Positions 9,938-63,765 of a DNA stretch of 64,000 nt are shown one piece after another; the stretch's first letter is position 1, and each line of letters begins with the position of its first letter. The translations under genes and the position numbers were made by a program. The DNA lies in the NCBI GenBank assembly GCA_016187945.1, contig JACPIT010000011.1:62001-126000 (forward strand), in the 5' to 3' direction. The stretch comes from Opitutia bacterium (GTDB lineage: Bacteria; Verrucomicrobiota; Verrucomicrobiia; Opitutales; Opitutaceae). The notes below the pieces were generated by a model. The model did no database searches and was not told where the DNA came from. It was given only the letters and a program-made list of their open reading frames with translations.

Positions 9938-10340
9938 CGCCCTGAGCCGGCCACAATCGACTCGAGCCCCGTGAGGAAAGGCGCGCACCCCTTCGGCTCG
10001 GGGAGTTGGTCGAAGGGCGCCTGGCCGCGCAGGGTCGCGAACCGCGGCTCGAGACGGGGCCTGAGTAGCGGTTGCTACGGGACGAGCGGCAAAGCAAATT
10101 GGCGACAACGGTCGATCAAGCGTCCACACGCTGTCGACAGCAGCGCGCCGTCGCCTCGAATGCCAAAGTCCGTAATACGGACTTTGGCTGGCGCGCTTCG
10201 CGTTCGCTCGACAGTCGCAGATCGCCGCTGCGGCTCGTCGGGACGACTCGCCCTACCAACCGGTGCGTTGCGACGGCGAGCGGAGTCGCCGCCCCGCCAG
10301 CGGCAGCCCGCTGCTTTCGAGCGGTCTCGCCCTGCAGCGC
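9938..10340. repeat. Gene-free spacer with GTAG-type and other palindromes
   Basis: No convincing gene lies between the end of the membrane-protein gene and the terminator of the convergent TonB receptor. The spacer holds a near-perfect palindrome at 10162-10188 (arms gccaaagtccgta / tacggactttggc around one base). A reversed REP-like hairpin ending in cgccctac lies near 10230-10258. Its CCAAA-TCCGTA palindrome is nearly identical to the one inside the adenine deaminase gene at 43661-43694. Confidence 0.6.
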
Positions 10341-10379
10341 AAAGAAAAAGGGTTTGTCACCTATTAGGTGACAAACCCT
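10341..10379 (-). terminator. Rho-independent terminator of the TPP-regulated TonB receptor
   Basis: A 15-bp perfect stem (10349-10379, arm agggtttgtcaccta) is followed on the minus strand by a T-rich run (complement of aaagaaaaa at 10341-10349). It lies 25 bp past the stop codon of the receptor gene. Confidence 0.8.
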
Positions 10380-12750: not shown

Positions 12751-12847
12751 CGAGCGCAACGAAACGCCGGTCACCGCGCCCGTCAACCGCGCAGTTTGTC
12801 ACCGGGCGGTCCCTCGCGGCACGCGCGAGCGGACGATGGGCGTGGGT

Positions 12848-12921
12848 GTAGGAGCGGCTTTATGCCGCGATTCGAACGTCACGAGTGCCTCGCACCGGTC
12901 GCGGCATAAAGCCGCTCCTAC
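12848..12921. repeat. REPIN-like element, family A (GCGGC-TTTAT-GCCGC stem)
   Basis: GTAGGA is followed by the hairpin gcggc-tttat-gccgc, a 30-40 bp middle, then the mirror image gcggc-ataaa-gccgc and TCCTAC. The same element occurs at 20792-20865 and 20993-21066, with half copies near 24656-24686, 45690-45712 and 48571-48602. Confidence 0.75.
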
Positions 12922-13050
12922 AATTCACGCGAGCGCGCGGTGCTCGCAGCGAGATCGCTTCGGGGCTTTTGCGCGATGCCGGCGCGGCATGACGAGGAGA
13001 GGCAGGAAGCATTTCTCGCGGCGGCAGGCGGCGGCTAGAATCCCACCGTC

Positions 13051-20607: not shown

Positions 20608-21174
20608 CTCCACGGCATGGCGCGGCGCACCGCGCAGGTATTTCCGCACCGCGGCGCGTTCGAGTATTCTGGCGGCCTTTGATCCAATGGTCGCCGCGAT
20701 CGTCACTCTCGCTCTCCTTACCTTGCTCGTCGTCATCGACGGCGGCGACGGGGCGGCGTGAGCGATCGGCGGCTCGCGCGATCGGCTTTTTGTAGGAGCG
20801 GCTTTACGCCGCGATACGAACGCGGCATACGCTTCGCACCCATCGCGGCGTAAAGCCGCTCCTACACTTCACGCGAGCGAGGGTTCGGGGTGGCACGGTG
20901 CTTCAGCTCGCGCGGGAGAATTTTTTCGACGCGGGCTAAAGCACCGCGCTACTCCTCGATCACTGACGGCCGCCTTCGCCTGGCCCGTTTTTGTAGGAGC
21001 GGCTTTATGCCGCGATCCGAACGCGGCATGCGCTTCGCACCCATCGCGGCATAAAGCCGCTCCTACAGTTCACGCAAGCGAGGGTTCGGGGTGGCGCGGT
21101 GCTTCAGTTCGCGCGGGAGGATTTTTTCGACGCGGGCTAAAGCACCGCGCTACTTCTCGATCATCGCGGTGCTC
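20608..21174. repeat. Spacer with tandem duplication of a REPIN pair (families A and K)
   Basis: A unit of about 173 bp occurs twice, at about 20790-20962 and 20991-21163. Each unit contains a family A REPIN (20792-20865; 20993-21066). A second pair with stem gcggtgctt follows, running from ggcacggtgcttcag to gcaccgcgctac (20891-20952; about 21092-21153). The copies differ at scattered single bases, so the duplication is not very recent or has been under drift. A 24-codon frame at 20688-20762 (MVAAIVTLALLTLLVVIDGG) is membrane-like but has no other support. Confidence 0.75.
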
Positions 21175-36715: not shown

Positions 36716-36758
36716 CCCCCCCCGAAAAGTGTAACCTAATAGGTTACAGTTTTCCGGG
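36716..36758. repeat. C8-GAA hairpin between kdpA and kdpB
   Basis: Eight C residues and GAAAAG lead into the arm tgtaacct-aat-aggttaca, and the stem is extended by cccgaaaa / ttttccggg, giving about 17 paired bases with one mismatch and one bulge. There is no U-run after the stem, so it is not a classical terminator. It could attenuate or protect the mRNA between kdpA and kdpB. The core ACCTAATAGGT also occurs in the terminator stem at 10349-10379. Confidence 0.65.
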
Positions 36759-42267: not shown

Positions 42268-42339
42268 GTAGGGCGGAGCGGCCCGCTCCGCCGCGTTCAC
42301 GGCATTGCGATCCCGGCGGACCGGGCCGGTCCGCCCTAC
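42268..42339. repeat. REPIN-like element between kdpD and kdpE
   Basis: GTAGG plus hairpin gcggagcggcccgctccgc, then a 25-bp middle, then gcggaccgggccggtccgc plus CCTAC. Both half stems are near perfect. It sits in the 190-bp gap before the kdpE start. Confidence 0.7.
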
Positions 42340-43246: not shown

Positions 43247-44923
43247 TCACTGATTCAGCGGCACGAAGCCCCACTGCGTCGCCGAAAACAACCCGCGGTC
43301 GCTCAGCTTCAGATCGGGGATCACGAGCAGCGCCATGAACGACAGCGTCATGAACGGCGCGTCGAGTTTCGAGCCGAGCTTTTTAGCTGCGCGATCGAGC
43401 TCCGTGTAGCGCTGCGCCACCCAGCGCCCGTCGCGGTTCGACATCAGCCCCGCGATCGGCAGCGGCAACACGCGGCCGCGCCCCGCGCGATCGACGACGC
43501 TCAGGCCGCCGCGATTTTTAATCACGAGATTCACCGCGCGCGCCAGCGCCTCATCGTCAGCGCCGACCGCGACGATGTTGTGCGAATCGTGCGCCACCGA
43601 CGACGCCAGCGCACCCGCCTTCAGCCCAAACCCGCGGATGAACCCCACCGCCACGCGCACCCCGCCAAACTCCGTATTACGGAGTTTGGGCGGGTTCGCG
43701 TAGCGGTTCACGACGGCGATCTTCAGCAAGTCGCGCTTCGGGTCGGAAACGAACGCGCGCTCGCGCACCGTCGGCACCTCGCGCAGGTGGCGCGTGATGA
43801 GCTGGCCGTTGAGCGCCTCGATGACGTTCAGCTTCGCGCCGCCGGTCGGTCGCACGGCGAAATCCGCCGCGACGCGCGGCCGGGCGCGAAACTGGTTCGG
43901 CGTCTTCGTGCGCAGTCGCTTCAGGCGCGAGCGGCCGTTCGCGGCGACGAGCGTGCCGTCGATGTAGGTGCGCTGCACGCGGAAGTTTTTCCAGCCGTCG
44001 ACGACGATGAAATCCGCCGGATCGCCCGCGCGCAGCAGGCCGACGTTCATCTTGTAGTGCTCGACCGGATTCACGCTCGCCGCGCGCAGCACGTCGAAGC
44101 GATCCGCACCGCTCGCGAGCGCGCGGCGCACGTGCGCGTCGAGGTGGTGCTGCACGAGCAGGTCCGGGTGCAGGTCGTCGCAGCAAAGCATCACGCGATC
44201 GGCATGCGTCTTCAGCAGCGGCGCGAGCGCAGCGAAGTTGCGCGCGGCCGAGCCTTCGCGGATGAGAACCTTCATCCCGGCAGCAAGTTTGTCCTGCGCT
44301 TCCTCGAGCGTGAAACACTCGTGGTCGGTCGACGGGCCGGCCTTCGCGTAGGCGCGCGCCTGCTCGCCGCGCAGGCCCGGCGCGTGGCCGTCGATCGGTT
44401 TGCCGAGCTTCTTCGCTGTCGCGATCATTTCGCGCAGCGCGGGATCGCCGGCGAGCACGCCGGGGAAATTCATCACTTCGGCGAGGTAGTGGACGTCGCG
44501 GCGCTTCAGCAGGCGCGCGACGGCTCTCGCGTCGAGCGCGGCGCCGGCGGACTCGAACGTCGTCGCCGGCACGCACGAGGGCGCGCCGAAGTGAAACTTC
44601 AGCGGCGTGCGCGCGCCGTCGCGGATCATGTAGTCGACGCCGCGCTCGCCGAGCACGTTGGCGATTTCGTGCGGATCGGAGATCGTCGCCACCGTGCCGT
44701 GCGCTACGGCCAGCCGCGCGAATTCCGAGGGCGGCAGCAGCGAACTCTCGATGTGGATGTGCGCATCGACGAAGCCCGGCAGAATCAGCCGCGACTCGCG
44801 CACAGCGTCGTCGCGCACGAGGCGCACGATGCACCCGTCGCGCCACTCGACCCGGCCCGCGTAGCAGGTTCGGGCGTGCAAATCCACGATCTGGCCGGGT
44901 AGGCGCTGCAAACGATCTTTCAT
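43247..44923 (-). CDS. ade: Adenine deaminase
   Basis: A 558-residue amidohydrolase. LPGFVDAHIHIESSLLPPSE is the metal-binding HxH region. AHGTVATISDPHEIANVLG, DGHAPGLRGEQARAYAKAG with STDHECFTLEEA, and MLCCDDLHPDLL follow, as in Ade enzymes. The C-terminal domain has GFIRGFGLKAGALASSVAHD with SHNIVAVG. It converts adenine to hypoxanthine and ammonia in the cytosol. In this C-terminal domain, after NRYA, an extra segment PPKLRNTEFGG is encoded exactly by a palindrome (43661-43694). The frame is preserved, so the enzyme is probably functional. The ATG at 44923 gives the expected N-terminus; clpP starts divergently. Confidence 0.93.
   Translation of the reverse strand: MKDRLQRLPGQIVDLHARTCYAGRVEWRDGCIVRLVRDDAVRESRLILPGFVDAHIHIESSLLPPSEFARLAVAHGTVATISDPHEIANVLGERGVDYMIRDGARTPLKFHFGAPSCVPATTFESAGAALDARAVARLLKRRDVHYLAEVMNFPGVLAGDPALREMIATAKKLGKPIDGHAPGLRGEQARAYAKAGPSTDHECFTLEEAQDKLAAGMKVLIREGSAARNFAALAPLLKTHADRVMLCCDDLHPDLLVQHHLDAHVRRALASGADRFDVLRAASVNPVEHYKMNVGLLRAGDPADFIVVDGWKNFRVQRTYIDGTLVAANGRSRLKRLRTKTPNQFRARPRVAADFAVRPTGGAKLNVIEALNGQLITRHLREVPTVRERAFVSDPKRDLLKIAVVNRYANPPKLRNTEFGGVRVAVGFIRGFGLKAGALASSVAHDSHNIVAVGADDEALARAVNLVIKNRGGLSVVDRAGRGRVLPLPIAGLMSNRDGRWVAQRYTELDRAAKKLGSKLDAPFMTLSFMALLVIPDLKLSDRGLFSATQWGFVPLNQ
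43661..43694. repeat. In-frame palindromic element inside ade
   Basis: The arms cccgccaaactccgta and tacggagtttgggcggg pair over about 16 bases around one T, with a single-base offset. Read with the gene it adds PPKLRNTEFGG without shifting the frame. A near-identical palindrome is in the spacer at 10162-10188, with c/g replaced by g/c at one pair of symmetric positions. Confidence 0.8.
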
Positions 44924-49788: not shown

Positions 49789-49858
49789 GGCGGAAACCTC
49801 GCGACGGACACGCGCGGAGGCCAGACTGATTTCGCGCGCACGGCAGCGGGCGCGAGCG

Positions 49859-49942
49859 GTGGAGCGCGTTGACCTCAACGCGCTCGCATGCCTTCCGCAG
49901 CGTGCGGCATTCCCGAGCGTCTTGAGGTCAAGCCGCTCCACC
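49859..49942. repeat. REPIN-like element, family F (AGCGCGTTGA stem)
   Basis: ggtggagcgcgttgacctca with acgcgctc forms one hairpin. After a middle of about 35 bp, gagcgtcttgaggtcaagcc and gctccacc form the other. The related element at 63652-63717 has a stronger stem with ccccaacgcg in place of cctcaacgcg. The foot here is GTGG/CCAC rather than GTAG/CTAC. Confidence 0.7.
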
Positions 49943-63642: not shown

Positions 63643-63651
63643 CGTCGCCTC

Positions 63652-63717
63652 GAGGTGGAGCGCGTTGACCCCAACGCGCTCGGGCGAGAACGCGTTGGGG
63701 TCAACGCGTTCCACCTC
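63652..63717. repeat. REPIN-like element, family F
   Basis: gaggtggagcgcgttgaccc with caacgcgctc and the mirrored gagaacgcgttggggtcaac with gcgttccacctc form two hairpins and also pair with each other over their full length. It lies between the receptor and PepSY genes. Compare 49859-49942. Confidence 0.7.
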
Positions 63718-63765
63718 CGGCCGACCGCCTTCGTCACCTTCACTCTCACTTTCCTCCGCCCTCCG

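Follow-up and report, generated by a model that had tools for sequence, protein, structure and literature searches.

The window, that is, the whole 64,000-nt stretch of Opitutaceae DNA analyzed here, carries on its minus strand an open reading frame (43247..44923) for an adenine deaminase of 558 aa, Ade, which matches the Pfam families Adenine_deam_C (E 5e-57) and Amidohydro_1 and is a homologue of the protein in PDB entry 3nqb. Within ade, a palindrome search located a palindrome at 43665..43689, CCAAACTCCGTATTACGGAGTTTGG, which is perfect over 25 nt, has the centre TAWTA and carries the stem type referred to as F1 hereafter. Weaker outer arms (87% over 30 nt) accompany it at 43647..43707, and the 34-nt stretch around it folds as RNA at -24.5 kcal/mol (z -6.65). 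The original prediction had described a near-perfect palindrome that reads PPKLRNTEFGG in Ade without breaking the frame, and both the palindrome and the reading are borne out: KLRNTEF corresponds to Ade residues 413–419 of 558, in the C-terminal domain and within Pfam Adenine_deam_C.

A DNA alignment with 6 relatives and a protein alignment with 10 relatives revealed a 30-nt insertion (10 aa) on the minus strand at 43660..43689 that is absent from the relatives. The element predicted originally thus stands as a palindrome, while the net insertion with respect to the relatives is these 30 nt, the edges of which (about 43660–43689) vary with the alignment. The Ade stretch between the motifs NRY and VAVGF (or equivalent) is 10 aa shorter in all 10 fetched relatives, nine from the genus and one from the wider family, and the alignment with 3nqb leaves a 9-residue gap at the insert position, in agreement with the earlier claim that other adenine deaminases lack the segment. 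Because the relatives are uniformly shorter and the solved homologue shows the gap, the simplest reading of these alignments is that the lineage leading to the window's genome gained the segment as an in-frame insertion. A loop of the same length was found in none of the relatives. By eye, neither a direct repeat nor a target-site duplication, as expected for a MITE, is seen beside the insert, the relatives being too distant for exact footprints. A surface-loop position of the insertion, as known from the Rickettsia parallel, is unsupported: the structure model, built from 11 sequences, has a mean pLDDT of 45 and presents the insert as a low-confidence turn between two strands, and placing the insert in a loop on this basis was dropped, as the model is too poor.

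The related intergenic copy that had been predicted at 10162..10188 is real. It is a perfect 27-nt palindrome between convergent genes (heuristic gene calls) and represents the G/C version of the F1 stem; the C/G swap between the two copies preserves the pairing, as predicted. The same intergenic gap contains a perfect 31-nt palindrome, AGGGTTTGTCACCTATTAGGTGACAAACCCT (10349..10379), which is the C/G version of another stem type, F2, and the palindrome search and ortholog comparison placed a further F2 palindrome at 36720..36758, between two genes that we take, from reading the flanking peptides, to be kdpA and kdpB. Both copies of the family proposed originally therefore exist, but they are part of a larger set with further stem types, only one of which had been caught. 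The F1 consensus matches the window twice, as compared with 0 matches in 100 shuffles. A genome-wide search for it, which the original prediction had proposed as its check, gave 20 sites at ≤3 mismatches and 0 for the reversed control, so that the consensus does recur far beyond ade.

By reading of the open reading frames, 12 of the 20 F1 sites are genic, and the palindromes are read without a stop in all three frames: eight are KLRNTEF-like, two NSVIRSL-like and two TPYYGV-like. A heuristic gene caller assigned 9 of the 12 to genes; the other 3, which have no TAWTA centre and were absent from the caller's input, lie in the same open reading frames. The hosts with one site each are a CCG protein, an alpha/beta hydrolase, Ade, RsmB and MutY, and those with multiple sites are an SNF2 protein (two), another SNF2 protein (three) and a presumed VWA-type protein (two); Pfam was run on all of them except one SNF2 protein and the VWA-type protein. 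The ATP-dependent DNA ligase of the relative G052 also carries two F1 palindromes. Two observations on the same kinds of genes concern other sequences. One is that the peptide STSGHKAP occurs in both an SNF2 protein and the VWA-type protein (L007, L010), which suggests another intragenic repeat. Another is that the ATP-dependent DNA ligase of G003 (L156) contains the peptide GDATPSSR three times, different repeats having entered this gene in G003 and in G052.

The genic sites differ in what the palindrome adds to the protein. RsmB is longer by 2 to 6 aa at the palindrome than in 7 relatives (12 to 18 nt net with respect to four of them), and the alpha/beta hydrolase is longer by 26 aa than in 2 relatives, which exceeds the element alone. 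In the CCG protein, a linker is replaced at the palindrome, which alters the length by -1 to about +4 aa, and in MutY the length change is zero. As these net values, together with the 30 nt of Ade, differ from gene to gene, a single fixed-length insertion was ruled out. The MutY site is also the one that speaks for coincidence, or for convergence in coding DNA rich in GC: its native peptide KSVxR is similar to what the palindrome encodes in one frame, and most MutY orthologs fail to beat their control windows in the pair score. As the shuffles and the reversed-pattern controls gave 0 matches, a chance origin of the whole family is virtually inconceivable and is refuted, while a single site such as that in MutY may be partly chance.

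To what extent the F1 sites belong to a larger set is seen in a census of near-contiguous palindromes, in which 464 kb of the own genome and 400 kb of G052 were compared with one set of local shuffles. The excess was largest for palindromes with a one-base centre (arms of at least 10: 19 versus 0 shuffled in the own genome and 18 versus 1 in G052) and smaller for other loops. TAWTA was the commonest one-base centre at a score of at least 8, with 9 cases in the own genome, counted over 444 kb after leaving out 20 kb that coincide for the most part with the window, and 19 in the 400 kb of G052. At the census threshold, 100 kb of G040 contained 5 TAWTA palindromes and 100 kb each of G003, G004 and G005 contained none. 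The stem types distinguished were F1 (AAASTCCG), F2 (GTMACC), F3 (TTTGAACCG), F4 (GTAGTC) and, in relatives, TTTGCCG.

The F1 consensus (≤3 mismatches) was present in 8 of 200 sampled Opitutaceae genomes. Exact F1 21-mers in genome contigs formed 29 stretches in a search that may leave out the own genome: 27 came from three assemblies (G052, G065 and G200), and the other two from one Patescibacteria record and one Thermodesulfovibrionales record. The F2 core, GTMACC-TAWTA-GGTKAC, was found in 53 of the 200 genomes and in 19 of 49 genera (reversed control 0); the own genome has 34 copies, and the highest count in another genome is 54. In a sample of the phylum Verrucomicrobiota, it occurred in 15 of 37 Opitutaceae genomes and in 0 of 350 genomes outside the Opitutaceae; among the sampled genomes of the phylum, F2 is thus restricted to this family. 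Carriage by viruses is unsupported, as the viral contigs gave 0 matches for F1 and, for F2, 13 stretches, which is about the chance level by a rough estimate.

The placement of the copies was examined using 79 fetched TAWTA palindromes, a non-random sample in which the own genome's codon table also served to score G040 and G074. The heuristic caller assigned 25 of them to genes and 54 to regions outside, the neighbors of the latter being co-directional in 27 cases, convergent in 20 and divergent in 7. F2 has one stop-free reading frame, and the intragenic F2 copies inspected use that frame. The copies cluster, with two to four lying within a few hundred nucleotides. One such place in the own genome (L369, G000:C8:27074-27309) has four F2-type palindromes in about 220 nt, with co-directional neighbors according to the heuristic caller.

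For the complementarity of the arms, 49 F2 sites were picked by the 17-nt core alone, and the pairing outside the core was counted. Positions 9–12 were paired in 45, 35, 28 and 28 of the 49 sites, as compared with 26.2, 13.5, 16.8 and 18.1 with shuffled partners; the excess was insignificant from position 13, and the pairing is at background beyond position 12 (beyond position 13 for F1). The covariation score of 38 distinct F2 25-mers was 0.287 against 0.095 for the shuffles and at most 0.123 for slid versions, whereas two of the five measures (two-sided pair changes and further pair types) were the same as in the shuffles; these controls ignore relatedness, and copies in one species tend to share stems. 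By eye, the variable pair was non-complementary in three of the 77 listed F2 places. The outer arms differ between loci and yet pair: in G052 and G065, four copies extend 4 to 9 pairs past the common part into locus-specific sequence.

The orthologous sites give information on how such copies age. In an exosortase-DUF3485 gene (Pfam), a related palindrome occupies the same linker position in 6 of 7 genus members and is decayed in G096; its stems are GTAGTC, GTAACC, GTGACC (with one mismatch) and others, and the flanks are 48 to 64% identical. When the rows of the 7 genomes were recentred on the best palindrome, which leans towards structure, 80% of the cells were paired, as compared with 67.4% in the shuffles (reached by 0 of 500) and 20–43% in slid versions. 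The covariation score was matched by 1 of 500 shuffles, and two of the five measures were ordinary (47 and 358 of 500 shuffles). With the pair score as the sole measure, the palindrome outscores the best control window of its fragment in only 2 of 6 relatives. At the intergenic site L046, GAACTCCG in the own genome (G000) corresponds to TTTGCCG in G074 and G040 with all 8 of 8 stem pairs formed; among the other relatives, one is partly palindromic, and 6 of 9 have no palindrome. The arms thus change together at the exosortase site, by three of the five measures, and at L046. L010 shows a swapped G/C pair, with one mismatch, in 2 of 2 relatives. At L045, the full palindrome is found in 0 of 7 relatives, with a short stem left in G201; among 7 relatives of the L007 SNF2 gene, the inner stem is kept in one and a short TAWTA palindrome is present in one; and at L011 the palindrome is present in 1 of 5 relatives. 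Some old copies therefore persist across the genus with differing, mostly complementary stems, and others have been lost. The central base also varies: TAATA and TATTA alternate at 3 of the 6 orthologous sites with at least two TAWTA copies, although point mutation would look alike.

These data bear on two explanations in which the palindromes are selected for a function. One is that they are sites of a chromosome-organizing or regulatory protein, with parS, SlmA and Noc sites as the model and with stem types that track changes in the specificity of the protein. The perfect symmetry fits a dimeric binder, 19 of 49 genera share the exact F2 core, and between kdpA and kdpB the 17-nt F2 core is identical in three genomes (the own and two relatives), where the outer arms differ, despite flanks that are about 20% different. 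However, the neighbors are divergent for only 7 of the 54 intergenic copies fetched, a genome can contain several stem types side by side, the stems differ at orthologous sites, the locus-varying outer arms still pair, and the copies enter genes as insertions and gather two to four per few hundred nucleotides. We thus regard the binding-site explanation as quite unlikely.

The other is that the hairpin is selected as RNA, protecting or marking mRNAs at operon gaps and gene ends, as in the role proposed for REP transcripts. The hairpins are indeed very stable (z -6.7 to -8.6 for the three tested by RNA fold), the stems covary, and copies are found between operon genes and between convergent genes. 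Against this, the exchange of TAATA and TATTA at the orthologous sites alters the RNA loop, and the F2 copy number is patchy in close relatives: the ten sampled genus members have 34, 41, 51, 15, 8 and 1 copies and four zeros. In the own genome, the A centre is the one read in most of the coding copies; this strand bias of the loop was set aside as a sign of RNA function, since the excess of A centres may reflect codon preference. A selected RNA is, in our judgment, very unlikely.

Regarding mobilization, 12 doublets of the palindromes show recurrent spacings of 45 and 53/54 nt. The spacers are similar at p<0.02 in 13 of 66 pairs, uncorrected for multiple tests, and only some doublets have related spacers; for example, a methyltransferase gene in the own genome and a helicase-like gene in G040 each contain a doublet, and the spacers of these two are related. 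A larger shared unit around every copy was rejected, because the best 69 of the 167 flank matches were neighboring palindromes, other repeats or orthologous flanks. Such doublets speak for untagged REPs moved by a RAYT-type (Y1) transposase whose gene escaped recognition as the cognate one, an explanation that overlaps with the one we favor below as its missing agent. Y1 transposases occur in all 22 genomes, a presence that does not discriminate and was set aside as an explanation in itself. At the 8 own Y1 loci (3.2–3.3 kb fetched each), no TAWTA palindrome was found; at the 12 Y1 loci of five other genomes, one lies 0.6–1.5 kb from the gene in 2 cases, in a non-flanking position. One own Y1 domain has a different A/T-centred odd palindrome on both sides, which favors a transposase of this kind, whereas in G116, which is rich in F2 (15 copies), the only Y1 hit belongs to a type that, as judged from hit length and position only, also occurs in F2-free relatives. 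Spread by a RAYT is possible, though on balance doubtful.

Several other repeats were noticed in the course of this analysis. The Y1 domain just mentioned (L307, G000:C9:597600-600800) is bordered by GGAGGGGCGATAT-W-ATATCGCCCTTCC, and four related palindromes, centred on ATAAT, were found elsewhere in the census. The window contains three REPIN-like pairs of the GTAG-tagged REP type, TGTAGGAGCGGCTTTA...TAAAGCCGCTCCTACA, at 12847–12922, 20791–20866 and 20992–21067. A repeated odd palindrome, approximately GGCGGAGCGG-S-CCGCTCCGCC, is present at 42271–42335 and at L120, L127 and L128, in some cases beside GTAG or CTACC, and also elsewhere in the genome. A further repeat, approximately GAGCGCGTTGACCTCAACGCGCTC, has a short loop and varying but pairing arms (49858–49942 and 63644–63725 in the window; L115, L120, L124, L132 and L133).

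The explanation that we consider probable is that the Ade segment is an in-frame insertion of a selfish REP-like hairpin of about 25 nt, with the centre TAWTA, whose arms are complementary largely through template switching. Three steps would be involved. In the first, the hairpin inserts at new sites, a step that Ade demonstrates and for which RsmB and the hydrolase provide support; it would spread alone or as a REPIN-like doublet, presumably with no function for the host. In the second, genic copies would survive because the frame of the hairpin is open and the linker of the protein is variable and tolerant. In the third, template switching during replication within the hairpin would copy one arm onto the other and would thereby produce the perfect arms, joint changes of both arms, the arms that run into locus-specific flanks and the flips of the central A/T. 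Several findings stand against this explanation: no transposase could be tied to the family, the MutY and CCG copies are unlike clean insertions, many sites have been lost, and drift under template switching alone would not lead to the same exact F2 core in as many as 19 genera. A binding protein or a function as RNA may have a part in this last recurrence. A version in which the palindrome is a transposase-free parasite, where captured single-stranded DNA would spread the hairpins and template switching would repair the arms and rewrite the stems in place, seems unlikely to us. If it were true, genic sites would last for the age of the genus while their sequence and the encoded peptide were replaced in two-arm steps.

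The original prediction compared the ade palindrome with the Rickettsia palindromic elements (RPEs), which are about 100–150 bp long. The likeness lies in palindromes that are tolerated in genes, being inserted in frame in many unrelated genes; the differences are that the TAWTA core is 21–27 nt, is read in three frames and has many intergenic copies. The ade palindrome is therefore not a member of the RPE class, and the earlier interpretation is only partly supported. A further difference is that the TAWTA arms stay complementary in some old copies, whereas the repeats of the Rickettsia elements are reported to become less identical with age (PMC6649704).

The REP elements that are defined by a GTAG/CGTC tag are the closer parallel. 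According to PMC3733652, REPs lie mostly between co-directional or convergent genes, and GTAG/CGTC REPs have intragenic copies in Opitutus terrae, including those in a DNA ligase and RNA helicases. The TAWTA palindromes are likewise short hairpins dispersed in multiple copies (in the own genome, 20 sites for F1 and 34 for F2), form dimers at short spacing (45 and 53/54 nt), lie between co-directional or convergent genes in 47 of the 54 fetched intergenic copies (heuristic calls, non-random sample), and have genic copies in the ATP-dependent DNA ligase of G052 and the SNF2 proteins of the own genome. They differ from REPs in three respects. One is that the listed copies have, by eye, no GTAG/CGTC tetranucleotide beside the stem. 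Another is that they are mostly perfect, odd, TAWTA-centred palindromes with locus-variable outer arms. The last is that a cognate RAYT flanked by the repeat was not found at the 8 own and 12 other Y1 loci. The TAWTA palindromes are an untagged REP-like variant with unusual in-place turnover of the stem. No description of them was found in the mainly open-access literature searched, the supplementary element lists of PMC3733652 lying outside this search.

Three other systems share single features. In the mitochondria of Nematomorpha, perfect inverted repeats occur in genes, some of their midpoints are common to species, and repeat conversion or template switching has been proposed for them (PMC6649704); here, by contrast, the same few cores occur at dozens of genic and intergenic loci, and the passages of PMC6649704 considered make no mention of a shared dispersed core. 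Template switching at quasipalindromes, also the topic of PMC8794818 and PMC7202029, homogenizes arms and inverts spacers in yeast coding DNA (PMC8604942). These two signatures are the ones compared here, but template switching is a mutation process with no dispersed repeat family and leaves the spread unexplained. PARCELs are tandem repeats of surface proteins, whereas the TAWTA copies are single insertions in housekeeping genes. The likeness is that the palindromic sequence also codes (PMC2996958), as the TAWTA copies do in genes.

The present results add an untagged class, restricted to the Opitutaceae, to the REP-like repeats, and they provide a series of orthologous sites, some of them genic, at which the stems differ and the pairing is largely kept. 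Short peptides enter conserved enzymes (Ade and RsmB) from a dispersed repeat. Whether it is selection or the process of mutation that maintains perfect genomic hairpins becomes testable, and arms that stay complementary through sequence change could show how repeats survive in genes.
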